Origin: Pseudanabaena cinerea FACHB-1277
GTDB lineage: Bacteria; Cyanobacteriota; Cyanobacteriia; Pseudanabaenales; Pseudanabaenaceae
Reading direction: 5' to 3'
Assembly (NCBI RefSeq): GCF_014696345.1
Contig: NZ_JACJPY010000047.1
Location: 1-34,830, forward strand
Length of the DNA stretch: 34,830 nucleotides
The notes under the pieces were generated by a model. That model ran no database searches. It was given only the letters and a program-made list of their open reading frames with translations, and had not been told where the DNA came from. The translations under genes were made by a program, and so were the position numbers. This document shows positions 225-28,222 of the stretch, one piece after another. The stretch's first letter is position 1; each line of letters starts with the position of its first letter.

Positions 225-1310
225 TCAACACTTCTGCTTTAGTTGACTTGAATACAAATGCACCACTGTATCACCTTGAGCAATTTTTGCTATTTCAAAT
301 TTTTTGTGACTATTTAGGTAATAGCTCATAAAAACTCCGTTTTGATTGCAACGAATTACATTTATATCCCCACCTAAAGCTACACCATCTAATAAAAGAC
401 AAGATGCTGTTGCGATATCTAGCTTTGTTTCACCAGATGAAGGCATAAGCACATCATTATTACTGCCTATAAAAAGATCTGATATTGCTAAATTAGTTCT
501 TGAGACAATGCTATTAATTGTTTCTTGGTAATGTGTATAAAGTTCCCCATAACGAACGCATGGCAATACTCCATCATCATTAATATCTGACTTTGAAATA
601 CCTTTCCCTTTATAAAAAGATGCTATTTCTCCTAACTTTTTTTCTTCCCACTCTCCCGCATCCCAAAACTCAGGGAATCGCAACTTTGGCAGGGTTTCGC
701 CTTCTGCGGGGAAAAGCTGCTGCATTAGCCCTTTTTTGTGGGCTTTGAGGGTGTCGAGTTTTTGGGCTTCTAAGGTGATGCGATCGTCTATGGAAGAAAG
801 GCAGTCAGCGATTTTTTGTTGTTCGGGAAGGGTTGGCAATGAAACCTTAATTGTGGAAAAGTTCTCGTAAAAAAGATAATTACGTATTCCTCCTTCAACA
901 TTATTATTTACTGATTGATTAAAAATTTCCGTATCAAAAAAATGTTTCAGATACTTATCAATAACTACATCGGTGGATTTAAAGCACACATATAATGAAC
1001 TAACTATAATGTCGTCTAAATCTTCGCTATAACCGATAGATCCGACATTGATTCTTGCGGGATTGTATGCAAATGTTCTTTTGTTAATTATTTTATAGAG
1101 TGTGATGTCGTAGCCACGCTTGTTACTGTCAACACCTTCAAATTGTTCTGCCTGTGGCACAAAACCAACTTTATTGTTAATTGAGTAAATGGGATATTTT
1201 TTCCCTTCCTTATTCCTTTTATCAGTCTTGTATGTTACATCCCCAAGATTTTTCTCCTCCCACTCTCCCGCATCCCGAAACTCAGGAAAACGCAACTTAG
1301 GCACACTCAT
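225..1310 (-). CDS. hsdS: Type I restriction-modification specificity subunit HsdS, 3'-truncated beside an insertion sequence
   Basis: HsdS chooses the DNA target of a type I restriction-modification complex. Two target-recognition halves are visible. Each starts with the same module (PKLRFPEF.DAGEWEEK.LG), near residues 4 and 209, and the first half ends with the usual spacer helix (LPEQQKIADCLSSIDDRI...LDTLKAHKKGLMQQLFP). The second half breaks off at QGDTVVHLYSSQLK and ends after the foreign residues QKC. In the family a second LPEQQKIAD spacer helix should follow, so roughly 60 residues are missing. The transposase fragment lies directly downstream, so insertion-mediated truncation is the simple explanation. 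The start codon overlaps the stop of the upstream DUF559 gene in an ATGA, implying translational coupling. Loss of the second conserved helix would be expected to impair HsdM binding; that is inference. Confidence 0.85.
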   Translation of the reverse strand: MSVPKLRFPEFRDAGEWEEKNLGDVTYKTDKRNKEGKKYPIYSINNKVGFVPQAEQFEGVDSNKRGYDITLYKIINKRTFAYNPARINVGSIGYSEDLDDIIVSSLYVCFKSTDVVIDKYLKHFFDTEIFNQSVNNNVEGGIRNYLFYENFSTIKVSLPTLPEQQKIADCLSSIDDRITLEAQKLDTLKAHKKGLMQQLFPAEGETLPKLRFPEFWDAGEWEEKKLGEIASFYKGKGISKSDINDDGVLPCVRYGELYTHYQETINSIVSRTNLAISDLFIGSNNDVLMPSSGETKLDIATASCLLLDGVALGGDINVIRCNQNGVFMSYYLNSHKKFEIAKIAQGDTVVHLYSSQLKQKC

Positions 1311-1789
1311 AGCTCACCCCCATACGTTATAGAACCACCCCCTGCCCCCTCCAGAGGAGGGGAATTAAGCAATCCCAAATTCCCCTCCTCTGGAGGGGTG
1401 TCCCGAAGGGACGGGGTGGTAAAAACCTCATGACCGCGCAAAAAATCCATCACACCCGCCATATTATTTTTCACATCGCGATCGCGTAAATGAATCACCG
1501 TTAAGCCTAAGCCCATCAAAAAAGCATCCCGAATTGCATCATATTCCACCTTATCATCATGACTACTACCATCCACCTCAATCACCACCGACTTTTCCGC
1601 ACAATAAAAATCAACAATATAGTTACCGATGATTTTCTGGCGATCGAAATCCAACCCAAAAAACTGCTTCCGTTTAAGTTGATTCCACATCAACACCTCA
1701 GCCAAATTACCAGCACGCCGCAACTCCCGCGCCCGTTCTTTTAGGGCTGGGTTATAGGGGAGAGACATATAGTTTTTAGTGTCACGCAT
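1307..1789 (-). CDS. DUF559 (Vsr/PD-(D/E)XK-like) endonuclease-domain protein
   Basis: This 160-residue protein has a DUF559 core. An N-terminal helical part (YNPALKERARELRRAGNLAEVLMWNQLKRKQF) is followed by the nuclease-like strands (IGNYIVDFYC, VVIEVDGSSH, with conserved D and E/D residues) and the terminal HLRDRDV segment. DUF559 proteins resemble very-short-patch-repair nucleases and often sit beside restriction systems. The natural domain ends near FLRGHEV. The last 35 or so residues (Pro/Gly-rich, with PPLEGAGGG) are the translation of an interspersed palindromic repeat at 1334-1420. Translation then couples to hsdS by an ATGA overlap. An internal Met codon at 1766-1768 is a plausible alternative start; neither has a clear ribosome-binding site. 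Confidence 0.8.
   Translation of the reverse strand: MRDTKNYMSLPYNPALKERARELRRAGNLAEVLMWNQLKRKQFFGLDFDRQKIIGNYIVDFYCAEKSVVIEVDGSSHDDKVEYDAIRDAFLMGLGLTVIHLRDRDVKNNMAGVMDFLRGHEVFTTPSLRDTPPEEGNLGLLNSPPLEGAGGGSITYGGEL
1334..1420. repeat. Interspersed GC-rich palindromic repeat, copy A
   Basis: An imperfect palindrome bounded by ACCACCCC and GGGGTGGT. The inner arms are CCCCTCCAGAGGAGGGGAATT and its near complement, and a small hairpin (GTCCCGAAGGGAC) is inserted in one arm. Copy B lies 400 bases to the right. Copy A is inside the 3' coding end of the DUF559 gene, so the repeat contributes codons. Confidence 0.75.
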
Positions 1790-1822
1790 AGTATTGATTT
1801 CTTGGCTTCGTTTGTAAGTTTT

Positions 1823-1908
1823 ACCACCCCGTCAGGCTACGCCTGCCCCCCCTCCAGAGGATGGGAATTTTTCGGCTTATTCCCCTGCTCTGGAGGGGCA
1901 GGGGTGGT
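1823..1908. repeat. Interspersed GC-rich palindromic repeat, copy B
   Basis: Same architecture as the copy at 1334-1420: outer ACCACCCC/GGGGTGGT, inner CCCTCCAGAGGA and its complement, and a small nested hairpin (CAGGCTACGCCTG) in the left arm. It occupies the 135-base gap between the toxin gene and the DUF559 gene in the minus-strand operon, so its transcript could fold and attenuate or stabilise the mRNA (inference). Confidence 0.75.
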
Positions 1909-1924
1909 CTTATCACATCTCTCA

Positions 1925-2275
1925 TTAGCTATCCTCCGCAATCCAGACAGCAAGTTTTTGGCGAATCCGATACAATCGCCCATGACCGATCGCCCCCAAA
2001 CTGCCCATAAGTAACGAACTTTCTAAAACCGCAAGGCGAGATAATCTCAATACACTCGCCACTTTTAGCCCTGTAGCCGCAAAATCAGGATCACTAGTCA
2101 ACAAAATCTCATCAATTTGTTGATCAGCTTGCCGCAACTGCGAAGAAACCATACAAACGAGCCAATCATCAAACTGAACCGAGGCTTGGCGTAGCATCAG
2201 CACTGGGCGCAGTTTTGCGCCAGAAAGATCGGTAAAAGGAAAAGGTACAAGCACAATTTGCCCCGATTGTTTCAT
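1925..2275 (-). CDS. PemK/MazF-family toxin of a type II toxin-antitoxin pair
   Basis: This 116-residue protein begins MKQSGQIVLVPFPFTDLSGAKLRPVLML, the hallmark N-terminus of MazF/PemK endoribonucleases (the GDIVLV.FPFTD..G.K.RPALV pattern). The central segment DDWLVCMVSSQ matches the family's second conserved strand. MazF-type toxins cleave mRNA in the cytoplasm and are held inactive by a co-expressed antitoxin. The ATG at 2273-2275 overlaps the antitoxin stop in an ATGA, the classical arrangement; a TTG two codons upstream is less likely. The pair lies between hsdR and the hsdS part of the restriction operon. Confidence 0.85.
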   Translation of the reverse strand: MKQSGQIVLVPFPFTDLSGAKLRPVLMLRQASVQFDDWLVCMVSSQLRQADQQIDEILLTSDPDFAATGLKVASVLRLSRLAVLESSLLMGSLGAIGHGRLYRIRQKLAVWIAEDS

Positions 2276-2559
2276 TGCCAACGCTCCTCAAGATCATCGA
2301 GACTGTAGAGACAAGGTTCGTCTTCCATGCCACGCATTGCCTGAGCCATCGACATTTGCCTAAAATCTTCATCCAAGTCAACATCAGGCATCTCTAACAA
2401 CCACTGCGCCAAAGATTCACTCTTTAATTGGTTTGAGTTAGTCAGTATTTTTTGCCGCGCTCTTTCCTCTAAGTAAAGAACATAATTCAGTAACTCTGCC
2501 TGTGACGACAACGGCAAAGCAGCAGCATGATATTGAATCTGTTGCAAAATTATATTCAT
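2272..2559 (-). CDS. Antitoxin-like DUF2281-type small protein
   Basis: This 95-residue acidic protein is encoded just upstream of the MazF-like toxin, with a 4-base overlap. Its N-terminus (IILQQIQYHAAALPLSSQAELLNYVLYLEERA) resembles DUF2281-type antitoxins, in which a short helical segment precedes a disordered toxin-binding tail. The tail is rich in acidic residues (MPDVDLDEDF, MEDEPCLYSLDDLEERW), as expected for a region that neutralises the toxin. The ATG at 2557-2559 was chosen because AGGAG lies about 11 bases before it; a longer frame from 2589 has no such signal. The role follows mainly from position. Confidence 0.7.
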   Translation of the reverse strand: MNIILQQIQYHAAALPLSSQAELLNYVLYLEERARQKILTNSNQLKSESLAQWLLEMPDVDLDEDFRQMSMAQAMRGMEDEPCLYSLDDLEERWQ

Positions 2560-2604
2560 AGTCTTGCCAACTCCTGTGAAATCACCCAAGCACTAATCAA
2601 ATTA

Positions 2605-5574
2605 TCACTCATACGCCTTTAACCCCGAAATTTCTCGACCCTGTGCCAACCTGTGCAACAACGGAATTAAATCCGCCATCAAAGCCAACTCCTTTTTAGT
2701 CCGTGCTTTCCAGCCCAAATCTAAGGGAGCTAACAGATCATTAAGCTGCTCACCATCAAAAATCATGCGCCGCAAAATGCCATCCACAAAAGTTTGTAGC
2801 GCCGCAGCTTCTAAACCATGCTGAGAAGCGATCGCCGCCAACTCCCGCGCACTTTTTTCCGCCTTGAACTGCTCATAACCCTCACGAATTGCCTTTTCAT
2901 CAAACGCCTGACCCACAGGCAACGTATTGATATAACCAATCAAATCCTCATCAATGAATTTTGCATCAGCCTGAATCAAACCAATCAACTCAGCACGGGT
3001 CATTTTCTGCTTGTCGGGCTTGTCATAGGTAGACCGAGCGATTAGCCCCATGATGTAGTCATAGTCAATCACCGCCGAAGCAAACAACACAAACTCAAAA
3101 TCTAATTGTTCCACTTCTGGACTGGTATTACCTTTGCCCTGTTGCACCTTCAGCCTTTGAGCAGTATCCAGATAAACACCTCGAAAAGCTTGTAACTGCT
3201 CTTGGGGAATCACCTTAGCGATCGCCTCTGTGTTTTCAGTCGTCAGGTCAGTATATTGATCGATTTGAGTCTTTAGGCGTTGCACCTCCTTAAACAGATT
3301 CACAAACTGCCCCCTTGCTGCATCACCTTTGAGGTTCGGCACTGATTCGGGGGCATAGGTCAAGCCCTGCGACTGCATAAACTTATCGAGATTTTGAACC
3401 GCTACTTCGAGCTTGGCGATCGCCATAGGTGCAGGCTCAACCAACCAAATTTCCTGCGCCCGTTCCTTAAACTCTCCAGAGAATAGCTTGATCGCTTCAT
3501 CAACGGGATCTTGCTGCTGCCGAAAGTCGAGAATATTGCCATAGGGCTTCGTATCATTCAGTACGCGATTTGTCCGCGAAAAAGCTTGAATTAGCCCGTG
3601 ATACTTCAAATTTTTATCGACATAGAGAGTATTCAAATACTTTGAGTCAAAGCCAGTCAGCAGCATATCCACCACAATTGTGATGTCAATCTTTTGAGCA
3701 TGGGGCAAATCACTATTAGAGTATTGCTGATCTTTAATTCGCTTCTGCACATCCTGATAGTACAGATCGAAATTATTAATATCGTGATTGGTTCGGAATT
3801 GGGCATTGTAATCAGCAATAATCGCCTTCAGTGCTTCCTTTTTACCTTCTGGGTCAACTTGGTTGTCTGCCTTTTCCGTAAGTAGATCTTCTTGCAGTTG
3901 TTTTACATCCTTATTGCCCTCCGCAGGCGGCGAAAATACACAGGCAATATTTAAGGGCTGAAAGTCAGGATCGGCTATCTGCTTCTGTGCCTGAATTTGT
4001 TTAAACAACTCATGATAGGCGATCGCATCATTAATCGAGCTAGTCGCAAGAATCGCATTAAACTTACGCCCTGCCGTCGCCGCATGGTGCTTTGTCAAAA
4101 TCGCCTCAGCGATCGCCTCTTTCGGTATTGCCTCCCCTGACTTGGGTGGATTCTTGCCTTCAGGCTTGTAATAGTCAATATGAAAGCGCAAAACATTACG
4201 ATCCTCGATCGCATCAGTAATCGTATAAGCATGAAGCTGCTGCTGAAAAATCGATTCTGTAGTCTTATAAGAAGCTTGATTACCCTCAATTTGTTGCACA
4301 GTCGCATTTTTATCAAAAATGGGCGTACCCGTAAAACCAAATAACTGAGCATTCGGGAAAAATTCGACAATTGCCCGATGGTTCTCACCAAACTGTGAGC
4401 GATGGCACTCATCAAAAATAAACACAATCCGTTTATAGCGCAGTGGCTCTAGCCTTTCCTTATAGTTGCGCTTTTTGCCATTCTTACTATCATCATCCAG
4501 CGCTAGGCTCAATTTCTGGATTGTTGTCACAATTACCTTGTCTGCATAATTATTGGATAGCAAACGCTGTACTAGGGTTTCCGTATTGGTATTTTCTTCG
4601 ACACAACCCTCCTGAAACTTATTAAATTCTTCCCTCGTTTGGCGATCAAGATCCTTGCGATCGACTACAAACAGGCATTTTTCAATATCGGGATTATCTT
4701 TTAATAAAGTCGAAGCCTTAAAAGAAGTGAGAGTCTTGCCACTGCCCGTAGTATGCCAAATGTACCCATTGCCAGAGTTCTGATGAATGCACTCCACAAT
4801 CGACTTAACAGCATAAATCTGATAGGGACGCATCATCATTAGTTTCTGTTCACTCGCCACCAGCACCATATAGCGGCTGATCATCTGCCCTAGCGTACAT
4901 TTCGCCAAAAACTTTTCGGCAAAGGTATCAAGATGGGTAATTTTGCGATTATCTTCCCCAGCAAATTGATAGATCGGTAAAAAGCGCTCTTCAGCATCAA
5001 AACTAAAGTGGCGGTTATTGTTATTCGCGAAGTACCAAGTATCGCTACGATTACTCACGATGAACAGTTGCAAAAAACACAACAATGTTTTCGTGTAACC
5101 ATTGCCTACGTCGTTTTTGTAATCCACAATCTGCTGCATCGCTCGACGCGGCGTAATGCTTAAGTTCTTTAGTTCAATTTGTACCACTGGCACACCATTG
5201 ATTAGCAGCAGCACATCGTAGCGGTGATAGCTATTGTCTGTATTAATCCGAAGCTGGTTAATGACTTCAAAGGTGTTTTTGCACCAATCCTTAACATTTA
5301 CGAGAGTGTAAACAAGAGGTGTCCCATCGTCACGCTCAAAGCTATTGCGATCGCGCAAGTGTTGAGAAGCCGTAAACACATCAGGCGTAACAATCTGCTC
5401 TAACAGTCGCGAAAATTCGCCATCTGTGAGATGCACACGGTTAAGCGACTCGAACTTTTCACGAAAGTTTTTCTCTAGTGTTGTGCGATCGCGTATATCA
5501 GGACGATAACTGTATTTGAGATCGCCTAACTTTTCAATCAAGGCTTGTTCGATGGCTTGTTCGTTCAAGGTCAT
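2605..5574 (-). CDS. hsdR: Type I restriction endonuclease subunit HsdR
   Basis: HsdR is the ATP-driven translocase and nuclease of the type I restriction complex. This 989-residue protein has the full architecture. There is an N-terminal PD-(D/E)XK nuclease (YDVLLLINGVPVVQIELK, near residues 119-136). A superfamily 2 helicase follows, with Walker A TTGSGKT (about 280), a DECH box (FDECHRSQFG, about 390), motif III-like GFTGTPI, and motif VI QAFSRTNR. A helical C-terminal domain completes it. Length is normal for the family, with no frameshift. It is the first gene of the minus-strand operon; the antitoxin gene follows after about 45 bases. No hsdM is found anywhere in the window, so function would need an HsdM encoded beyond the left edge or elsewhere. 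Confidence 0.95.
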   Translation of the reverse strand: MTLNEQAIEQALIEKLGDLKYSYRPDIRDRTTLEKNFREKFESLNRVHLTDGEFSRLLEQIVTPDVFTASQHLRDRNSFERDDGTPLVYTLVNVKDWCKNTFEVINQLRINTDNSYHRYDVLLLINGVPVVQIELKNLSITPRRAMQQIVDYKNDVGNGYTKTLLCFLQLFIVSNRSDTWYFANNNNRHFSFDAEERFLPIYQFAGEDNRKITHLDTFAEKFLAKCTLGQMISRYMVLVASEQKLMMMRPYQIYAVKSIVECIHQNSGNGYIWHTTGSGKTLTSFKASTLLKDNPDIEKCLFVVDRKDLDRQTREEFNKFQEGCVEENTNTETLVQRLLSNNYADKVIVTTIQKLSLALDDDSKNGKKRNYKERLEPLRYKRIVFIFDECHRSQFGENHRAIVEFFPNAQLFGFTGTPIFDKNATVQQIEGNQASYKTTESIFQQQLHAYTITDAIEDRNVLRFHIDYYKPEGKNPPKSGEAIPKEAIAEAILTKHHAATAGRKFNAILATSSINDAIAYHELFKQIQAQKQIADPDFQPLNIACVFSPPAEGNKDVKQLQEDLLTEKADNQVDPEGKKEALKAIIADYNAQFRTNHDINNFDLYYQDVQKRIKDQQYSNSDLPHAQKIDITIVVDMLLTGFDSKYLNTLYVDKNLKYHGLIQAFSRTNRVLNDTKPYGNILDFRQQQDPVDEAIKLFSGEFKERAQEIWLVEPAPMAIAKLEVAVQNLDKFMQSQGLTYAPESVPNLKGDAARGQFVNLFKEVQRLKTQIDQYTDLTTENTEAIAKVIPQEQLQAFRGVYLDTAQRLKVQQGKGNTSPEVEQLDFEFVLFASAVIDYDYIMGLIARSTYDKPDKQKMTRAELIGLIQADAKFIDEDLIGYINTLPVGQAFDEKAIREGYEQFKAEKSARELAAIASQHGLEAAALQTFVDGILRRMIFDGEQLNDLLAPLDLGWKARTKKELALMADLIPLLHRLAQGREISGLKAYE

Positions 5575-12561: not shown

Positions 12562-13947
12562 ATGATTCTTGCTGTTCCCCTAGCTTGGCTGCAACTTACC
12601 TACGAAAAAAGCCGACTACTCGCCGCGATCGCGGGCATTACCTTTGCCGTTGTCTTAATATTTTTGCAACTGGGGTTTCGTGATGCTCTATTCAGTAGTG
12701 CCATTCGCTTACAGAGCAACCTGATCGGCGATCTCGTAATCATTAGCCCGCAATCTACTAATTTAGTGGGAATGCGAAATTTCTCACAGCGCCGCCTCTA
12801 TCAAAGCCTTGGCATTGATGGTGTAAAGTCTGTTAATCCTGTCTATATCGGTCTTGGTGCATGGAAAATTAAGGAAGATCCTGCGGGGCAAACCCGCAAT
12901 ATTTTGGTGGTGGGTGCAGATCCTGATACTGAAGTATTTAAGGTGGTGGGCGCATCGACAAATATTGATCGGACTAAGGTGCAAGATGTGGTGTTGTTTG
13001 ATCGCGCTTCCCGTGCTGAGTTTGGTCCGATCGTCAGTGAGTGTGGGGCGATCGCCCTCAAAGCGAAATTTACCGATGAGGCATTTGCCTGTAACAGCTT
13101 TGTCACCCGCGAAGTGGAAAACCGTAAATTAACTATCGGTGGTCTGTTTGAGTTGGGGGCATCCTTTGCCGCCGATGGCGCATTAATTACTAGCGATACT
13201 AATTTTTTAAGGATATTTAACAATCGCCGTGCAGGGTTGATCAATATCGGCTTGATTAATTTAGAGGCTAAAGTTTCCCCCTATGCTGTCATGCTCAAGT
13301 TTATTCAGGATATGCCTGAGCATATGGTGATATTACCCCGCGAAAAGCTAGAGCCAGATGGCAAGAGAATTCTGGTTCTCTATCAAGAGCAGGTGGATGC
13401 TAATGGGAAGGTTGTGCGGGAAGAGAATAAAAATAAGGTGGCGATCGCCCAATCAGATCTCACGATCGCTGATTTAGAAAAAACCCAAGATGCGGCGATC
13501 GATGATGCCCGCATCATGACCATACAGGGATATATCGATTTTGAGAAAGGTTACTGGCAAAGAAGTACAGCGATCGGTTTTATTTTCACCCTTGGCACAG
13601 TCATGGGCTTTATCGTTGGTATCGTGATCGTCTATCAGATTTTATATACCGATGTCTCTGACCATATGGCAGAATATGCCACCCTCAAGGCTATGGGCTA
13701 TGGCAATTTCTATCTCGCAAGAGTCGTAATTCAGGAAGCTTTTTTATTATCAATTTTAGGATTTATTCCAGGCTTAGGAATTTCCTTCTTCCTATACAAC
13801 TTGACCAAAAATGCAACCTTACTACCTCTCTATATCTGGGATAAGGCAATCCCTGTACTGATGCTGACCATGATTATGTGCGTAATTTCTGGCACAATCT
13901 CCTTACGCAAAGTCCAATCTGCCGATCCTGCGGAAATTTTTGGGTAA
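12562..13947 (+). CDS. devC: DevC-like ABC transporter permease
   Basis: DevC is the permease of the DevBCA (MacB/FtsX-type) exporter, known in heterocyst glycolipid export and widespread in cyanobacteria. The start (LAWLQLTYEKSRLLAAIAGITFAVVLIF) and the C-terminal three-helix block (GYIDFEKGYWQRSTAIGFIF, EYATLKAMGYGNFYLARVVIQEA, SADPAEIFG) are diagnostic. The periplasmic domain is expanded. Family members are near 385-400 residues, but this one is 461. It carries an extra hydrophilic stretch at about residues 258-318, and a smaller one near 160-180 with two Cys. No devB or devA is adjacent, so it is an orphan permease by position. Confidence 0.88.
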   Translation: MILAVPLAWLQLTYEKSRLLAAIAGITFAVVLIFLQLGFRDALFSSAIRLQSNLIGDLVIISPQSTNLVGMRNFSQRRLYQSLGIDGVKSVNPVYIGLGAWKIKEDPAGQTRNILVVGADPDTEVFKVVGASTNIDRTKVQDVVLFDRASRAEFGPIVSECGAIALKAKFTDEAFACNSFVTREVENRKLTIGGLFELGASFAADGALITSDTNFLRIFNNRRAGLINIGLINLEAKVSPYAVMLKFIQDMPEHMVILPREKLEPDGKRILVLYQEQVDANGKVVREENKNKVAIAQSDLTIADLEKTQDAAIDDARIMTIQGYIDFEKGYWQRSTAIGFIFTLGTVMGFIVGIVIVYQILYTDVSDHMAEYATLKAMGYGNFYLARVVIQEAFLLSILGFIPGLGISFFLYNLTKNATLLPLYIWDKAIPVLMLTMIMCVISGTISLRKVQSADPAEIFG

Positions 13948-16169: not shown

Positions 16170-17330
16170 ATGGCAACAAAGCAAGCGGCGATTTTGGTCT
16201 TAGCAGATGGTACTTGTTACAACGGCTATGCCTTTGGTGCTTCTGGCACAGCGATCGGTGAAGTGGTCTTTAATACGGGCATGACGGGATATCAAGAGGT
16301 CATTACCGATCCTAGCTATCGCGGGCAAATTGTTACTTTCACCTGTCCCGAACTAGGCAATACGGGCGTAAACCCCGAAGATGAAGAGTCCGATCGCCCA
16401 CAGGTACGCGGTGTCATTGCCAGAAATATTACAGTTCTGCCTAGCAACTGGCGATCGCGCCAAACCTTACCCGACTACCTCAAGGCGCATAACGTAGTCG
16501 GCATTTCAGGAATTGACACCCGCGCCCTCACCCGCAAGCTGCGATCGCTAGGGGCAATGAATGGCGGCATTTCCACCGAAATCCTCGATCCGCAAGCATT
16601 ATTGGCTAAGGTTAATGCTGCCCCCTCTATGCAAGGACTAAACCTCGCCCAAGAAGCCTCCACCGATCGCATTTATGAATGGACAGAAAAAACCCTCACA
16701 GAGTGGGAATTTGTCGAACCCGCCCATTTATCAGGTGATACGCTCACGGTGGTAGCGATCGATTTTGGGGTCAAGAAAAATATTTTGCGTCGTCTTGCCA
16801 GCTATGGTTGCCGCGTGATTGTTGTCCCCGCTAATACACCTGCCGAAACCATTCTCGCTTACAACCCCGATGGCATCTTCCTCTCCAATGGACCTGGCGA
16901 TCCTGCGGCGGTCACAGAGGGCATTGCTACCGCCAAAGTTTTGCTAGAGGCAAATAAACCCATGTTTGGTATTTGTCTGGGGCATCAAATTCTAGGCTTA
17001 TCCATGGGCGGCGACACCTTTAAGCTCAAATTTGGACATCGCGGACTCAATCAACCCGCCCAAAATCAGGCCGAAAACGCCGATCGCCGCGTGGAAATTA
17101 CTAGTCAAAATCACGGCTTTGCCCTCACAGGTGAGTCCTTTGAAACCTCCCCAGCCATGCTCACCCACATCAACCTCAACGATCGCACCGTTGCAGGACT
17201 AGAGCATAAAACCTTGCCGATTTTCTCCGTGCAGTATCACCCTGAAGCAAGCCCAGGTCCCCACGATGCCGACTATTTGTTTGAGCGCTTTGTAATGGCA
17301 ATGCGCGAACATAAAAAAGCCGTCGCCTAG
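16170..17330 (+). CDS. carA: Carbamoyl-phosphate synthase small (glutaminase) subunit
   Basis: CarA releases ammonia from glutamine for carbamoyl phosphate synthesis, which feeds the arginine and pyrimidine pathways, acting in complex with CarB. The 386-residue protein has the CPSase small-chain N-terminal domain ([35 protein letters not shown]). Its class I glutamine amidotransferase domain has the nucleophile Cys269 ([10 protein letters not shown]) and the His/Glu pair in [17 protein letters not shown]. Length is standard. carB is not adjacent, as is common in cyanobacteria. Four bases after the stop begins a MITE-like repeat. Confidence 0.97.
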
Positions 17331-19069: not shown

Positions 19070-19546
19070 ATGACAGAAGCAGTTGCTGAAAATGTTAAGG
19101 ACATTAGGGCGCGATCGCTCTATGAGCAAGACATTTTGCTATGGGTCGAAGATACTGTGGCAAAGCTCAAGGCTGGAGATTTTCAAAATTTAGATCTTAT
19201 TAACTTAATTGAGGAGGTGGAGTCTTTGGGGCTTTCGCAAAAAAAGGAGCTATTGAGTCGTCTGGTGACATTGCTAGAGCATATTCTCAAACGGATGTAT
19301 GTAGATATTCCCAATGATTATAACGGATGGGAGCGCACAATTCGTAATCAGCGCGTTGAATTAGAACTTTTATTAAAGCAAGTACCAAGCTTAAAAAATA
19401 GATGGGATGATAGTTTTGTTGAGGCATGGCGAGTTGCTTTAAAAACAGTACGGAAGGAATATCGTCAGATAAATTTTCCCAATCGCTGGCAATATCCCCA
19501 AGACATTGAGACTATGCTCGATCGCGATTTTTGGGAGGATGTTTAG
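19070..19546 (+). CDS. DUF29 family protein
   Basis: A 158-residue protein with the DUF29 signature: SLYEQDILLWVEDTVAKLKAGDFQNLDLINLIEEVESLGLSQKKELLSRL, then LLEHILKRMYV and a C-terminal YPQDIETMLDRDFW. DUF29 is an all-helical family of unknown function, very abundant in cyanobacteria and often found in defence-like or mobile neighbourhoods. The stop lies 59 bases before the start of the DGR target gene on the same strand, so co-transcription is possible. Whether it belongs to the retroelement or is a chance neighbour cannot be decided here. Confidence 0.85.
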   Translation: MTEAVAENVKDIRARSLYEQDILLWVEDTVAKLKAGDFQNLDLINLIEEVESLGLSQKKELLSRLVTLLEHILKRMYVDIPNDYNGWERTIRNQRVELELLLKQVPSLKNRWDDSFVEAWRVALKTVRKEYRQINFPNRWQYPQDIETMLDRDFWEDV

Positions 19547-19605: not shown

Positions 19606-21546
19606 ATGACAAATAACAATGACGGCAAGCGCGAGATTAAGATCTACAAGAAAACCTATCGGCTGCCAGCACTATCGGGGGGCAAGCTAGATGATCTGCA
19701 ACAGCAAATCCGCCAGCGCAATGAACATTTGAGTAAAGGGCGATTGATTGTCAAGAATGAGTCAGTCATTGTGCCAGAAGAAAAAATTGTCATCGAAGAA
19801 GAAAAACGGGGTTTATTCGGGAATAAGGTTATTAGGCGCGAAAAAAAGGTCATTGAACAAGTACGTAAACTTGTTAAGCGAGAGAAGCGGGAGCCTCTTA
19901 ATTTTGAAGAACGCTATCGAGAGCTAAATGCGATCGTGCAGAACTATGACGAAATGGTGCAGGTACTCAAGCATCATCAGTACGATTATCAAAAATTCTT
20001 TCAGGAATTAGCAAAAGAAATCAAGGAAACCATTGGCGAAAACTGTAAGGCGATTGCTGAGAAAGAAACTAAGCGTTTGCAAAAGGAACAGCAAGAGCTA
20101 CAAAAAGCTAATCCTAACTCGCAAGTACTAGCGATGCTGGGTAATATGCGATCGCAATTGTTTGATATTGCCAAATCAACGGGATATGCGGCAGTGCTAA
20201 TGCTCAAAAAATTGGACTTGATGAGTGAGAGTCTTAAACGTATTGCCAGCGATCAGGATTCGCAAAAGCAGTTATTGGCGCAAGTGCTAGAAGAAATTCG
20301 ATCGCAAAAGGATCTCTACGAGTTGCAATTAGAAATTAATGCGTTGCAAGCCAAGACTGCTGAATTTGTAGATATTGCTCTCAATTTTGAGGAATATATG
20401 AAGCCTTTTATGGGCAGTTTTCAGGACCTGCTAACCAATGTCTCTAAAGTGGACAAAGAGCTATCAAAGGCAATGAATGAGATTCAGAATATTGCGAATT
20501 TGCTAGAAGCCCAGCAATTTCAAAGTATTGAATCAGATCGCGAATCTCAGCGCATTGCTGACTTTTTGGTGACTGGCGAAATGAAAAAAGATCGGTTACA
20601 GGATGCGTTAGACCGTATGAATAGCGTCCAGTCACAAGCTGATTTTGATGCTCAGTTGATGGGTGCTGGTAAGGGGGTAACTATTTCTGATTGTTTGGCA
20701 AATATTCGCGAGTTTCTGGATCTAAAACTGGAGAAGGTTACAGAAATTGATATACCTGCGATCACAGTGGATGAAAACATATCTGCTGACCTTGGATTGC
20801 CGCATATTTCTCTAAATCTAACCAATTACTCTGAAGATGACCTGACCCTCGACCTCAGTAAGGGCATCACCCTAGAACTAGTGCGTGTTTCTGGTGGTAG
20901 CTTTATGATGGGATCGCCTGATGGTCAAGGCGACAATGATGAACGTCCACAGCATCGGGTGACATTACAGGAATTTCTAATTGGCAAATATGCAGTCACT
21001 AATTCCCAATGGGAAGCGGTGATGAAAACTAAAGGATCAGCAAATTGCGATCCAAAATTTCAAGGTGCAGATCAGCCTGTGGTTGGAATTTCGTGGCATG
21101 ATGCTAAGAAGTTTTGTGAAGAACTCTCTCAAAGAGTCAAAAGGAATGTTAGATTAGCTAGTGAAGCTGAATGGGAATATGCCGCTAAAGGAGGCAATCA
21201 AAGTAGAGGCTTTATCTACTCAGGCAGTAATGACCTGAATGATGTCGGCTGGTATGGCAGCAATAGCGGTTCCGTAACTCATACAGTGGGTGAAAAAACA
21301 GCTAATGAACTTGGCATTTATGACATGAGTGGCAATGTTTGGGAATGGTGTGAAGATGTCTGGCATGAAAATTATAATGGTGCGCCCAGCGATGGCTCTG
21401 CGTGGCTGACTGGCGGCGAACAAAATAGACGCGCCCTGCGTGGTGGCTCGTGGTACTTCAATGCGCTCGATTGTCGTTCGGCAATTCGCGTCAGGGACAA
21501 TGCAGGCTATAGGTACTACGGCATCGGTTTTCGGGTTGTCTTGTGA
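19606..21546 (+). CDS. DGR target protein: coiled-coil region fused to a variable FGE-sulfatase (C-type-lectin fold) domain
   Basis: This 646-residue protein is the diversified target of the retroelement. There is no signal peptide, so a cytoplasmic location is likely. Residues about 45-350 are highly charged and helical, with coiled-coil character. A linker leads to an FGE/SUMF1-type domain from about residue 425 (VSGGSFMMGSPDGQGDNDERP, YAVTNSQWEAVM, RLASEAEWEYAAKGG, YDMSGNVWEWCED), ending ALRGGSW...CRSAIRVRD...GIGFRVVL. The last 38 residues are encoded by the variable repeat. Compared with the template-encoded version, 12 residues between 617 and 639 differ, mostly Asn changed to Tyr, Asp, Gly, Phe, Ile or Val. 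FGE domains in DGR targets act as ligand-binding scaffolds, not as sulfatase-modifying enzymes. The ligand is unknown. Confidence 0.9.
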   Translation: MTNNNDGKREIKIYKKTYRLPALSGGKLDDLQQQIRQRNEHLSKGRLIVKNESVIVPEEKIVIEEEKRGLFGNKVIRREKKVIEQVRKLVKREKREPLNFEERYRELNAIVQNYDEMVQVLKHHQYDYQKFFQELAKEIKETIGENCKAIAEKETKRLQKEQQELQKANPNSQVLAMLGNMRSQLFDIAKSTGYAAVLMLKKLDLMSESLKRIASDQDSQKQLLAQVLEEIRSQKDLYELQLEINALQAKTAEFVDIALNFEEYMKPFMGSFQDLLTNVSKVDKELSKAMNEIQNIANLLEAQQFQSIESDRESQRIADFLVTGEMKKDRLQDALDRMNSVQSQADFDAQLMGAGKGVTISDCLANIREFLDLKLEKVTEIDIPAITVDENISADLGLPHISLNLTNYSEDDLTLDLSKGITLELVRVSGGSFMMGSPDGQGDNDERPQHRVTLQEFLIGKYAVTNSQWEAVMKTKGSANCDPKFQGADQPVVGISWHDAKKFCEELSQRVKRNVRLASEAEWEYAAKGGNQSRGFIYSGSNDLNDVGWYGSNSGSVTHTVGEKTANELGIYDMSGNVWEWCEDVWHENYNGAPSDGSAWLTGGEQNRRALRGGSWYFNALDCRSAIRVRDNAGYRYYGIGFRVVL

Positions 21547-21569
21547 GTTTGCCTTTTCGCGTGAGGACT
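21431..21569 (+). repeat. DGR variable repeat (VR)
   Basis: This 139-base segment is co-linear with the template repeat at 23172-23310. There are 15 mismatches, all between 21454 and 21521, and every one corresponds to an adenine in the template (8 A to T, 6 A to G, 1 A to C). The first 23 and last 48 bases are identical. Identity runs 23 bases past the stop codon at 21544-21546. The identical 3' block is the expected place for the site where mutagenic homing starts (IMH). Confidence 0.95.
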
Positions 21570-21625
21570 TTTTCTTTATACTTTTTCCCTTTTTCCCTTT
21601 ACCCTCTTTCTTATATACTCTTCTT

Positions 21626-21647
21626 AGCGCCTGTGGCGCTTTTTTTT
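21626..21647 (+). terminator. Hairpin plus T-run downstream of VR
   Basis: AGCGCC-TGT-GGCGCT is a perfect 6-bp stem with a 3-base loop, followed by seven or more T residues. By shape it is an intrinsic terminator between the target gene and avd. DGRs commonly carry a hairpin/cruciform shortly after VR that aids target recognition, and this stem, 57 bases after VR, could do that as well (inference). Confidence 0.7.
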
Positions 21648-21676
21648 ATTTTTTAGAAGTCAAATATGAAATAAAG

Positions 21677-22030
21677 ATGAGTACACAACCAGTTGATTTG
21701 CCAGTTATCCAAAAAACTTACGATCTGATTAAATGGTATATTCCCATTATTAACAGAATGCCCAAGCATCATAAATTTGGACTAGGCGATAGAATTACCA
21801 ACTATCTCTATGATATCATGGAATCATTAATTATTGCCAGATATACAAAAGATAAAATATCAATTTTAGAAACTCTCAATGCTAAGCTAGATATACTCAG
21901 GCATCAATCAAGGCTATTACTAGATTTTCATCAAATTGAAGAAGAAAGATACGTTTATATTAACACCCAATTACAGGAAATAGGCAATGAAATTGGTGGT
22001 TGGCTAAAATATCAAAAAAACAAAAAATAA
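21677..22030 (+). CDS. avd: DGR accessory protein Avd
   Basis: A 117-residue helical protein. Sequence and position identify it as the accessory variability determinant, which forms a pentameric four-helix-bundle barrel that binds the DGR reverse transcriptase and template RNA. Family-like features are IQKTYDLIKWYIPIINRMPKHHKFGLGDRI, YDIMESLIIARYTKD and LDILRHQSRLLLDF followed by a basic C-terminus (KYQKNKK). The start at 21677 was chosen because the open frame upstream reads through VR and the terminator in a low-complexity Phe-rich stretch. The reverse transcriptase starts 62 bases downstream. Confidence 0.92.
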   Translation: MSTQPVDLPVIQKTYDLIKWYIPIINRMPKHHKFGLGDRITNYLYDIMESLIIARYTKDKISILETLNAKLDILRHQSRLLLDFHQIEEERYVYINTQLQEIGNEIGGWLKYQKNKK

Positions 22031-22092
22031 TCAAAAAATAATTTTGATTGGTTTTAACAAAGTTAGATTATAAAATTAAATTGCAATGCTCT

Positions 22093-23172
22093 ATGAAACG
22101 AATTGGTAATCTTTGGGAAGAAATTATTAGCTATCAAAATATTATATTAGCCGCAAAAAAAGCCCAAAGAGGTAAGAGATTTCGCCCCAATGTTTTAGAG
22201 TTTAATTATAATTTAGAAAATGAAATAATCACCCTCAAACAAGAATTAGAAACCCAAACCTATATCCCCAGCGATTACAAAGTATTCCAAATCATCGATC
22301 CTAAACCCCGTCAGATTTCGGCTGCACCTTACAGAGATCGAGTAGTACATCACGCTCTCTGCAATGTTATTGCTCCCATATTTGAGAAATCTTTTATCAC
22401 CGATTCCTATGCTAACCGTAGAGGATTTGGTACGCACAAAGCCCTGCGCCGCTTTATCAAATTTGCTCAGGCTAGTCGCTACATTCTGCAATGCGATATC
22501 AAAAAATATTTCCCAACTATCGATCATGCAATTCTCAAACAAATCATTCGCCGCAAAATTAAATGCCCCAAAACCCTCTGGTTAATTGACCTAATTATTG
22601 ATCACAGCAATCCTCAAGAACCAGTCCAGTTATACTTTTCAGGTGACGATCTATTATCACCCCTAGCCCATCGCAAAGGCTTACCCCTTGGTAATCTCAC
22701 CAGTCAATTTTTCGCAAATATCTATCTCAATGAATTTGACCATTTTGTAAAAGAACGACTTCAAGCCAAACGATATGTGCGTTATGTCGATGATTTTGCC
22801 ATATTTTCCGACGATCTTGACTTTCTCAAATTCGCCAAGCTAGAGATAGAACTATATCTTGCAAAAATCAGATTGCAACTTCATTCGGGCAAAACTCAAA
22901 TTTTTGAAACCAAGTATGGTATAAATTTTGTGGGATTTCGGATTGTAAACAATCAGATTCGTGTGATATCTAAAAACATTAGACGAGGCAGAAAACGTCT
23001 TAACCGTCTATACAAGCAGGTAAGTTTAGGTGAAGCGAGTACAGACCAAATCCAAAGTTCAATCCAAGCATGGAGAGGACATCTGCAACATGGCAATACA
23101 TGGCAGTTGCAGCAACAGTTATTTAGTGGTCTTGGGTTCGCCCAAGATGCTAGAGAAGGTGCAAATCCATAG
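22093..23172 (+). CDS. DGR reverse transcriptase
   Basis: This 359-residue error-prone reverse transcriptase copies the template RNA with adenine mutagenesis. The ATG at 22093 gives the family start [29 protein letters not shown]; an upstream TTG at 22048 is less likely. Seen are first catalytic Asp135 in [13 protein letters not shown], the DGR-specific motif 4 LGNLTSQ (residues 199-205, the (I/V/L)GxxxSQ variant in place of QGxxxSP), and catalytic YVDD (231-234). Motif-5/6-like segments ([18 protein letters not shown]) and a basic thumb ([16 protein letters not shown]) follow. There is no endonuclease or maturase domain. The final G of the stop codon is the first base of the template repeat. 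Confidence 0.95.
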
Positions 23173-23310
23173 CGCCCTGCGTGGTGGCTCGTGGAACAAC
23201 AATGCGATCAATTGTCGTTCGGCAAATCGCAACAGGAACAATGCAGACAATAGGAACAACAACATCGGTTTTCGGGTTGTCTTGTGAGTTTGCCTTTTCG
23301 CGTGAGGACT
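23172..23310 (+). repeat. DGR template repeat (TR)
   Basis: Invariant donor copy for the variable repeat at 21431-21569. It starts on the last base of the reverse transcriptase stop codon and lies on the same strand. By eye, 31 adenines lie in the protein-coding equivalent part and 15 of them are altered in VR. Most adenines occur as AAC or AAT (Asn) codons in the frame of the target gene, so substitution at the first two positions cannot make a stop codon. The transcribed template RNA presumably starts within or upstream of the reverse transcriptase gene. Confidence 0.95.
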
Positions 23311-23599
23311 ACCAATAGTCAGAGTCATTGCATGGGAATGTAACGAGTGTACATGGTGGCAGTCCAGATTTGTGCCTGTGGTGTTGGTGACAGCATTCAA
23401 ATATAAACCTGAGTCAGTTATTTTAGTAGGGCAACCGAAAGATTAGCTGACTCTCTCCATTTAGCTCTCTCCATTTATATGATCGTGGTTTTCACCCTAG
23501 TACAGACAAGGTAGAAACCGAAGACAAAAAATAACGATACTTGGAGAGATTTTAGAGAACCAGATAAAACTGGATTTCATTGTCACCATGCCCACAAAT
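23311..23599. other. Intergenic stretch after the DGR template
   Basis: No gene is supported here. The only notable feature is a short direct duplication (CTCTCTCCATTTA twice, near 23451-23477). It may hold the 3' part of the DGR template RNA, which usually extends beyond TR, but no clear structure or terminator could be assigned. Confidence 0.4.
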
Positions 23600-26357: not shown

Positions 26358-28037
26358 TTAGACTGCTTTGATGTGGGTAGGACGCAATGGAGCGGAGCTA
26401 ATTCGATGTAAAGAGCTGCGCGGCAAAACTCGCAGTATCTCGTCACTGGTGGTGATCCCCGCGTTTAGTTTGGCGATCGCTGCTCTACGAAAGGAATCAA
26501 AATCTATCTCACTTAGATAACGATTAATCTGGGTAATCGTGCCTTCATAGATCAATTGCCTAAAAGTATCGTCAATATCAATTAGCTCCACTATTGCCTC
26601 CCGCCCAATATAGCCCGTGCCAAAACAGCGATCGCACCCCTTACCACGCCGCCATTGCCCAACAGCGACATCGCCCCAATCTAGCCGCAGAGACTGCAAC
26701 TCATTGGCTGTCGGTTGGTGAGTGGTCGTGCAGTATGGGCAGTTTTTGCGGACAAGGCGCTGTGCTACAACGCCAAGCAGGGCATCGCAGATCAGCCCAG
26801 GATCGGGTCCCAAATCTCTCAAGCGCGGAATTGCACTTGCTGCATCATTAGTATGCATCGTGGATAAGACCAAATGCCCTGTCAGCGCCGCTCTCACCAC
26901 TGTTTCCGCCGTTTCAGGATCACGCACTTCCCCCACCATCACAATATCTGGATCTTGGCGCAAGATCGCGCGTAGCCCTGCGGCAAAGGTCATGCCTGCG
27001 GGTTCACATACTTGCGTCTGGGTAATATTCGGCAGTACATATTCCACGGGATCTTCAACGGTGATTACATTGACGTGTTCTTGGGCGATCGCTTGCAGAC
27101 TAGTATAAAGAGTGCTGGTTTTCCCTGAACCCGTTGGGCCCGTCATAATAATTAGCCCCTGTGGTTGTCGTAGCCAACTGTCATAAACACTTAGGGCGCG
27201 ATCGCTAAATCCTAAACAATCTAGGCGATTGGAGAAGGGATTGTCGCGGGGTAAGAGTCGCACCACTGCCTTTTCACCACCAACACAGGGCAATGTACTC
27301 ACTCGCATATCCAGATTTAGCAGCAAGTTTTCGGTACTGGTATATTCTTTGCCAATGCGACCATCTTGGGGGCGGCGACTATCGGCAATATCCATATTAG
27401 ACATCACCTTCAGCGCCACAATAATTTTGCGACTAATTTCTAAGGGCAGGGTTTTGATATCGCGCAAAATACCATCAATGCGATAGCGTACTCGCAACCC
27501 CTTGGGTGTTGGCTCTAGGTGAATATCACTGGCGCGATGTTGCAGGGCAACAGAAATCAGCGCATTGATCCTGCGGGTTTGATCAAAGGCTTGCGATAAA
27601 TATAGGTCAGTTACTTCCCCAATATCCACCTGTTCCGATTCCCCTGTAAGCGGGTTGATCGATTGTGAAGAATGAATTTGATTGGGGCTAGGCAAATTTT
27701 GACGACGAAACCAAGCGCGATAACTATCGCTGCTAATCATTAGCGCCTTGACTTCGGTAAGGGTGCGATCGCCAACTAATTTAAGATGCATATCCGTAAG
27801 TGTCTGCGGACTGGCAATGTAAAAACAATTGCGCCACAACAGCAAAGGAATTAAGGGCGGTAAAATGCTGCGGTCTTCAAATTCCCGAAAAAACCGATAA
27901 TTTAGATCCTGATCGAGCCAATCAATATGCAGATTGCCAAGGGGATCAACCAAAAGTTTTAAAGCCTCTTCACAGGTGGCAATATCGCCGTTGCGAAGGC
28001 GTTTCCAAACCGACTCGACCCTTGATGCGTTCTCCAT
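26358..28037 (-). CDS. GspE/PilB-type secretion or pilus-assembly ATPase
   Basis: A hexameric cytoplasmic ATPase that powers pilin polymerisation or type II secretion. The 559-residue protein has a GspE N-terminal region (about 1-140). The N2 domain (ALISVALQHRASDIHLEPTPKGLRVRYRIDG) is followed by Walker A (MTGPTGSGKTSTLY, about 308), the Asp box (NVITVEDPVEYVLP), Walker B (ILRQDPDIVMVGEVRDPETAE) and the His box (GHLVLSTMHTNDAASAIPRL). A four-Cys zinc motif (CPYC...CDRCFGTGYIGREA) completes it. It is shorter than the main cyanobacterial PilB (about 670), so it may be the second, PilB2-like paralogue. No other pilus genes are adjacent. It follows a PCP_red gene by 5 bases. Confidence 0.92.
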   Translation of the reverse strand: MENASRVESVWKRLRNGDIATCEEALKLLVDPLGNLHIDWLDQDLNYRFFREFEDRSILPPLIPLLLWRNCFYIASPQTLTDMHLKLVGDRTLTEVKALMISSDSYRAWFRRQNLPSPNQIHSSQSINPLTGESEQVDIGEVTDLYLSQAFDQTRRINALISVALQHRASDIHLEPTPKGLRVRYRIDGILRDIKTLPLEISRKIIVALKVMSNMDIADSRRPQDGRIGKEYTSTENLLLNLDMRVSTLPCVGGEKAVVRLLPRDNPFSNRLDCLGFSDRALSVYDSWLRQPQGLIIMTGPTGSGKTSTLYTSLQAIAQEHVNVITVEDPVEYVLPNITQTQVCEPAGMTFAAGLRAILRQDPDIVMVGEVRDPETAETVVRAALTGHLVLSTMHTNDAASAIPRLRDLGPDPGLICDALLGVVAQRLVRKNCPYCTTTHQPTANELQSLRLDWGDVAVGQWRRGKGCDRCFGTGYIGREAIVELIDIDDTFRQLIYEGTITQINRYLSEIDFDSFRRAAIAKLNAGITTSDEILRVLPRSSLHRISSAPLRPTHIKAV

Positions 28038-28042
28038 ATTGT

Positions 28043-28222
28043 TCAGTCATATTTCTTGTTAAATTGTTTTTTTGCCTCTTCATAAACCTCAAGGGTTATC
28101 TGTGGATAATTACGATCTTGGGCATATTTTTCAATTTTTTTGAAGGCGAAGGGTCTAACAAAAAATGGAATGTCCTTGAGTTTAGCCTCTGCTTCAGCAG
28201 TCCATGATATTTTTTCGCTCAT
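28043..28222 (-). CDS. Small PCP_red-domain protein (light-independent protochlorophyllide reductase C-terminal-like domain)
   Basis: A 59-residue protein beginning MSEKISWTAEAEAKLKDIPFF. It continues with VRPFAFKKIEKYAQDR and ends with ITLEVYEEAKKQF. This matches the PCP_red domain found at the C-terminus of the ChlB subunit of dark-operative protochlorophyllide reductase and also as free small proteins in cyanobacteria. Free versions have no clear role. The gene ends 5 bases before the GspE/PilB-like start on the same strand, so the two form a transcription unit. No strong Shine-Dalgarno sequence precedes the ATG. Confidence 0.8.
   Translation of the reverse strand: MSEKISWTAEAEAKLKDIPFFVRPFAFKKIEKYAQDRNYPQITLEVYEEAKKQFNKKYD

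Follow-up and report, generated by a model that had tools for sequence, protein, structure and literature searches.

A complete diversity-generating retroelement (DGR) was characterised in the window, the whole 34,830-nucleotide (nt) stretch of Pseudanabaena cinerea FACHB-1277 DNA analysed here (contig NZ_JACJPY010000047.1), and with high confidence the locus is read as a cyanobacterial-type cellular DGR, complete and probably working. The target gene with its variable repeat (VR), the accessory gene avd, the reverse transcriptase (RT) gene and the template repeat (TR) follow one another on the forward strand in that order, as the original prediction, made from the letters alone, had proposed; the extent given there (19606-23310) holds these core parts, but the element runs on to 23453 over a structured RNA after the TR. 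The same anatomy recurs at many related loci. DGRs with FGE or C-type-lectin (CLec) targets are well documented in cyanobacteria (PMC7517822, PMC10907252, PMC12691664), and the locus adds another member to a well-known kind. Its interest beyond that of an ordinary DGR lies in a visible change of target, in an RNA model and in template modules that stand without an RT.

Repeats and proteins of the element

The regions 21431-21569 and 23172-23310, which formed the top family in a repeat search of the window, were realigned without gaps and differed at 15 of 139 positions, all 15 at A of the downstream copy and none at another template base, exactly as first reported. The downstream copy contains 34 A, the probability that 15 random mismatches all land on A is 3.8e-11, and the homology breaks off sharply at either end. 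Since the A lies in the downstream copy at every mismatch, 23172-23310 was assigned as the TR and the 3′ end of the target gene as the VR. The VR (21431-21569, forward strand) comprises the last 37 target codons, the stop codon and 23 nt beyond, ending in GAGGACT, and the TR (forward strand) starts at 23172, where the RT stop codon ends. Read in the target frame, 12 codons are changed between the two repeats, and the TR holds 12 AAY codons and 20 codons with A, including the stop codon.

The target gene (19606-21546, forward strand) encodes 646 amino acids (aa), of which residues 424-645 matched the FGE-sulfatase family PF03781 in Pfam (E 2.1e-52), a family of C-type-lectin fold. Sequence relatives of this domain in the PDB include PvdO and the variable protein of Treponema denticola (2y3c, 7.9e-29), and by these matches the VR lies in a target of the C-type-lectin-fold type. 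The N-terminal 420 residues matched no Pfam family at E 0.1 and were called coiled-coil by eye. As to the suggestion that this target architecture may be undescribed, the N-terminal part is without a Pfam match, but the gene as such is present in relatives, in some under a DGR and in others not.

The avd gene (21677-22030, forward strand; 117 aa; PF22296, PHROG 3206) scored 130.6 bits against the NCBIfam model NF033474, above the curated cut-off of 80, which bears out its first identification; a longer GTG-start open reading frame (ORF), from 21440, would begin within the VR. The RT gene (22093-23172, forward strand) encodes 359 aa from its ATG, with the motifs LGNLTSQ and YVDD, and an extension to a TTG start at 22048 is possible. 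Its best sequence match in the PDB was 8ub7 (E 2.6e-48), a record titled only 'Reverse transcriptase', which we take to be the DGR RT of Bordetella phage BPP-1. In a tree of 58 rows (some duplicated, for example L049 and G018; deeper forks weakly supported) the RT fell inside a clade of 38 cyanobacterial DGR rows with support 96/98, beside those of Pseudanabaena sp. M53BS1SP1A06MG (locus L034, by its coordinates the same place as G005:C94) and of genome G006 (100/100). Of seven non-DGR RTs from the genus, six formed a separate long-branched group, and the placement of the other, L120, on a branch of 7.86, is unreliable. Neither outcome that the original prediction had named as refuting it, a mismatch at a non-adenine template base or an RT outside the DGR clade, was observed.

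Activity, target-site hairpin and structured RNA

Window positions 21313-23453 have a 90%-identical copy in L034/G005 and in G006. Between the window and the L034 cassette the ratio of nonsynonymous to synonymous substitution rates (dN/dS) was 0.13 for the RT and 0.07 for Avd, values that mark both proteins as being under purifying selection. The G005 and G006 cassettes differ at 55 of 2137 positions, which are distributed as 25/139 in the VR, 3/139 in the TR and 27/1859 (1.5%) in the rest. Of the VR changes, 23 fall where both TRs have A and the other two where the TRs also differ, and within each cassette 17/17 (G005) and 17/18 (G006) of the VR/TR mismatches lie at A. In BLAST the two genomes were 98.9% identical over 6.3 kb of cassette and downstream DNA and 90.7% identical over 3.9 kb upstream. 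The excess of VR changes is a signature of recent diversification, and on these comparisons the cassette family does diversify; A-specific mutation together with high levels of TR RNA was described in a cultured cyanobacterium (PMC12691664).

It is improbable, though the best placed of the alternatives, that the DGR is complete but silent, its VR being a fixed and selected variant from an earlier active phase. The VR of the window is known from one genome sequence, and cultured Trichodesmium gave TR RNA without mutation (PMC12691664); against this stand the maintained dN/dS values of both proteins, the absence of any non-A mismatch between TR and VR, and the diversification of a sister cassette between genomes only 1.5% apart over the remaining cassette. 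The claim that the element is or recently was active thus gained indirect support from the selection values and from the sister VRs, and is unproven for the window strain itself.

Behind the VR, a pyrimidine tract with a GC hairpin (21570-21640, hairpin at 21626-21640, forward strand) is a candidate DGR target-site hairpin or cruciform, which can also be read as a terminator. In a survey restricted to VRs with at least 75% of their mismatches at A, such a tract and hairpin (loop 3-4 nt) stood behind 56 of the 83 examined (median distance 57 nt), against 3.2/83 expected from dinucleotide shuffles and 5/83 in the stretch 400 nt further on; the tract had a median C/T content of 75%, and the control stretch 45%. 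BPP-1 requires a hairpin after its VR, and in phage DGRs the hairpin lies at 4-34 bp with 4-nt GRNA loops (PMC3240598), whereas that of the window lies 57 nt past the VR and has a 3-nt loop.

The TR is followed by a 152-nt RNA (23302-23453, forward strand), which is read as the structured 3′ part, or spacer, of the template transcript. Twelve cyanobacterial post-TR sequences were aligned over 161 columns, and RNAalifold gave 38 pairs, 24 of them with two-sided changes, and a covariation term of -9.57. A covariance model built for this RNA (R1) scored 143.9 bits on the window RNA, which is one of its training sequences. Of 34 cyanobacterial RT loci, 30 gave an R1 match, or 19 of 23 untrained loci when the 11 training loci are set aside (missed: L051, L063, L074 and L094), and so did none of five non-cyanobacterial RT loci searched from 29 such loci. 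A gathering-level Rfam scan of the window gave no match; in a permissive scan RF02921 (RT-14) matched 23309-23453 over its full length with 43.6 bits (E 3.8e-5), and it likewise matched Tolypothrix locus L035 with 46.8 bits, both scores lying below the cut-off of 48.1, which was reached at none of 12 cyanobacterial DGR loci. RT-14 and DGRs were not named together in the literature searched, which did not include the presumed source of RT-14. Because the spacer after the TR of BPP-1 folds and recruits RT-Avd (PMC12875486), the RNA at 23302-23453 is probably, by analogy, its counterpart. That the 152 nt are conserved for some other reason, as an antisense gene, a terminator or a DNA site outside the template RNA, is quite unlikely: conservation was read from DNA sequence and a 93-aa minus-strand ORF does overlap the region, but an ORF leaves the two-sided changes in 24 of 38 pairs unexplained, and the RNA begins at the TR end even where the TR precedes the RT (L061 and contig C137).

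On the model of BPP-1, a transcript of the TR and this RNA would bind the RT-Avd complex, which would prime inside 23302-23453 and copy the TR, inserting bases at random wherever it meets an A. The complementary DNA would then replace the VR, with the shared 3′ end and the hairpin as guides, so that up to 19 sense codons of the target tail could be rewritten, and since the TR copy would not be consumed, repeated rounds could follow. As relatives carry caspase fusions, the target may act as a diversified sensor that belongs to a conflict or signalling protein and binds its ligand through the FGE face.

Several observations weigh against parts of this account. The single-sequence fold of the window RNA beats shuffled sequences modestly (z -1.83), the covariation analysis rests on 12 sequences in a MAFFT alignment, and activity in the window strain itself is extrapolated from its relatives. 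The usual 3′-end difference between the repeats, a mark of polarity, is missing in the window lineage: VRs end in GGACT in 44 of 74 cases (23 unreadable or other) and TRs in GCACT or GTACT at 47 of 57 loci, while GGACT ends only three TRs, those of the window and its two sisters, and the VR-type GAGGACT of the window TR is unlike 54 of the 57 loci compared. The window thus has GAGGACT in both repeats where most other loci have distinct ends; the difference between the initiation of mutagenic homing sites IMH and IMH* is a feature of BPP-1 and was not treated as defining. Finally, the N-terminal region of the target has no known function, and conflict-system genes were not seen: the window has 25 ORFs that reach 130 aa, and a Pfam scan of 22 of them (all but 12843-13244, 16170-17330 and 27800-28207) showed no MoxR, vWA, VMAP or caspase gene, and hence no ternary conflict system of the VMAP kind, in which a MoxR ATPase, a vWA protein and a VMAP protein adjoin the target.

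The weakest alternative, an ordinary duplicated gene tail beside an unrelated group II or defence RT, draws on matches of the RT to group II (140 bits) and DRT models, every one under its cut-off, and to many PADLOC RT models, and is refuted by the restriction of all mismatches to A together with the RT tree, quite apart from the Avd match and the shared anatomy of many related loci.

Like BPP-1 (NC_005357), the locus has VR, avd, RT and TR with A-specific differences, a hairpin after the VR and a structured spacer after the TR; it differs in its order (avd-RT-TR, against avd-TR-RT in BPP-1) and in its cellular FGE-domain target in place of a phage tail protein. With the cyanobacterial DGRs of Vallota-Eastman et al. 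2020 (PMC7517822) it shares the RT clade, a C-terminal CLec-type target with the VR at its 3′ end, target modules on varied N-terminal domains, remote targets and, sometimes, more than one DGR per genome; unlike those described there, its target has an N-terminus without a Pfam match and without kinase, caspase or TIR domain, and both parents of its chimera are visible in relatives. The systems of Thiohalocapsa PB-PSB1 (Dore et al. 2024, PMC10907252) likewise include targets served in trans and loci that have lost RT or TR, but also STAND or VMAP conflict genes, of which none was seen in the scanned ORFs of the window.

Exchange of the target

By sequence comparison with its relatives, the target of the window is a chimera of two FGE genes, both parental forms of which are seen in related genomes. 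The chimeric reading follows from BLAST boundaries and codon-window identities that switch partner at 21313-21368 (forward strand): upstream the gene resembles its orthologues and downstream it resembles caspase-FGE targets. In the codon windows, a comparison that lacks G012 at the junction, the best partner of the gene was the G005/G006 orthologue as far as about 21345 (last such window 45/60) and the caspase-FGE targets past it (55/60, then 54/60 and 52/60). The switch lies in the conserved GNVWEWC motif. At the right, the shared DNA ends at 23453 with the RNA itself, identity being 136/143 from the TR to 23453 and 38/100 past it.

Orthologues of the target were found in G005, G006, G007, G012 and G022, with 78-86% aa identity over the N-terminal part. 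No DGR RT stands alongside the gene in G005, G006, G012 or G022; the RT of G005 and G006 is located away from it, while neither G012 nor G022 gave any RT match. The tails of these four orthologues fitted none of six TRs tried, showing at least 14 non-A mismatches in long alignments. In G005 and G006, the window-type cassette sits instead behind a caspase-FGE gene (Peptidase_C14 in L034). On this reading the target arose when a cassette, made up of avd, RT, TR and RNA together with the final ~78 codons of an FGE gene, recombined onto another FGE gene through the GNVWEWC motif. The G007 orthologue ends near a contig end, and between its VR and the TR of G007:C450 there are 10 mismatches at A and one at a non-A position; about 43 nt are common to the two contig ends, so the gene and the C450 TR probably form one locus. 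This orthologue is itself the target of a different DGR, whose RT is 59% identical to that of the window. One genus therefore shows the same target gene without a DGR alongside, with one DGR lineage and with another. The principle of such a target change is not new, as recombination of DGR tails onto new N-terminal parts was reported in Thiohalocapsa (PMC10907252) and recombination between DGR tails and N-terminal parts was discussed for cyanobacteria (PMC7517822).

Two observations were made at these loci in passing. In the G007 TR (L170 198-330, G007:C450) several A that are kept in the G001 TR are lost at the same sites and to the same letters as in the VR, and the G007 VR has 10 A mismatches against the G007 TR and 20 against the G001 TR; the G007 TR looks partly overwritten by the VR. 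Adjoining the caspase-FGE target of L034, a small protein (L034 2682-3065) without Pfam match looks like an effector-associated adaptor, and presumably resembles EACC1.

Template RNA without a neighbouring RT and other loci

The R1 model found DGR template modules both with and without a nearby RT. Within the genus it matched 12 of 26 genomes at 18 places, of which 12 adjoin a DGR RT (a fragment in one case) and six do not. In the class, where stricter filters were applied and weak matches were lost, 108 matches were listed in 70 of 242 genomes; the 90 outside the genus were analysed with flanks of about 4.5 kb on each side (shorter at contig ends) on both strands. An RT of at least 700 bp was present at 40 of these loci, an RT fragment at nine, avd only at one and neither at 40. 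Opposite-strand RTs lie near the RNA at L300, L323 and L329; L321 has a fragment of an RT.

The 40 loci without RT were divided into 12 solos, in which an FGE gene runs into the RNA, nine satellites, defined by a VR/TR pair of their own in which A accounts for 75% or more of the mismatches, seven decayed pairs and 12 others. When the 40 genomes were searched, 23 gave no RT match at E 1e-20 and 17 gave one, two of which (G165, 31% identical; G194, 86 aa) are not evidence of a DGR by themselves. Many of these loci are probably losses, and a few may possibly be served by an RT in trans. Among genomes that have an RT at another place, the satellites of G031, G104 and G207 matched their own TR far better, with 1, 3, and 2 or 0 non-A mismatches, respectively, than the other TRs tried from the same genome, with 6-25 over shorter stretches; the G207 satellite stands on an 8.9-kb contig, and an RT just beyond it is possible. 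The G112 satellite, in a one-contig genome whose RT lies 1.4 Mb away, had four non-A mismatches against its own TR and 15 against another, its pair (9 A among 13 mismatches) falling below the 75% line through mismatches at the edge and in the end motif, while G139, a decayed pair, had 17 against 21-22.

Four further solos in the genus (G006:3693720, G005:C4:19421, G025:1409992 and, in the window genome, C143) have the RNA directly after the FGE gene, and neither avd nor RT was found in the stretch around them. At 16 solo loci the 3′ end was of the TR type (GTACT or GCACT) in eight, of the VR type in three and other in five. The simplest origin of a solo is recombination between VR and TR that deleted avd and RT and left one hybrid repeat, in the manner of a solo long terminal repeat. 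The solo genes of G005 and G006 differ at 2/1725 nt before the VR, at 16/100 nt next and at 3/255 nt after it, and no other fitting TR was found for the solo in the one-contig genome of G006, where the best were the cassette TR (74%) and VR (72%). This gene may be the best candidate for self-templated mutation with a remote RT; two independent deletions between VR and TR after diversification would account for it as well.

We regard it as conceivable, and rather doubtful, that the TR and its 3′ RNA form a separable, non-autonomous unit, the loci without RT using their own TR with an RT in trans and the solos perhaps templating themselves. Against it, only nine of the 40 loci without RT are satellites, and six of these nine stand in genomes in which no DGR RT was found and look like recent losses or draft gaps. 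Trans diversification of targets is described in Thiohalocapsa (PMC10907252). Template modules away from an RT are already in print for Nodularia, where 70 near-identical dispersed copies of a presumed DGR template RNA were reported, and where DGR1 of Nodularia spumigena CCY9414 has a strong transcription start near its TR (PMC3610870). The loci found here sit at FGE genes, differ from one another and are likened to Nodularia by description, not by sequence. If modules without RT are served in trans, the hypervariable genes of cyanobacteria exceed the counts of RT-based surveys; if the RNA unit is separable, surveys that begin from the RT miss a class of diversified genes that the RNA model finds.

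At L159 and L160 the RNA follows arrays of tandem repeats beside caspase-FGE genes, with no TR or RT; the arrays resemble those that replace DGR parts in Thiohalocapsa.

Other DGR-related loci were found in the window genome. G000:C137 (L099, minus strand) is a second DGR with an FGE target of 657 aa, TR and RNA between target and avd, and an RT 63% identical to that of the window; a second TR-like copy after its RT, for which neither an R1 match nor a fitting VR was found, is probably dead. G000:C158:23217-23345 (L100 4583-4825) has an 80-aa ORF that resembles the tail of an FGE gene cut short, its end an old VR-like sequence; with 18 A and 18 non-A mismatches to the window TR it is read as a fossil target. 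As possible further VRs of the window TR, the C158 tail was rejected on these mismatches, the C143 solo with 13 A and 10 non-A mismatches over 81 nt, and the C137 target, whose DGR has a TR of its own.

A prophage or plasmid origin of the window copy was considered and set aside, no phage or plasmid gene being present among the scanned ORFs. RTs 56-63% identical to that of the window occur on plasmids of other cyanobacteria, and more distant ones in 169 phage records, so that transfer is possible. The neighbours of the element include a DUF29 protein by Pfam (19070-19546, forward strand), probably outside it, Raf1 and a sugar transferase with STAS, and 16170-17330 looks by eye like the small subunit of carbamoyl-phosphate synthase. 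On the minus strand, 228-5574 carries the R and S subunits of a Type I restriction-modification system with a DUF559 protein between them.

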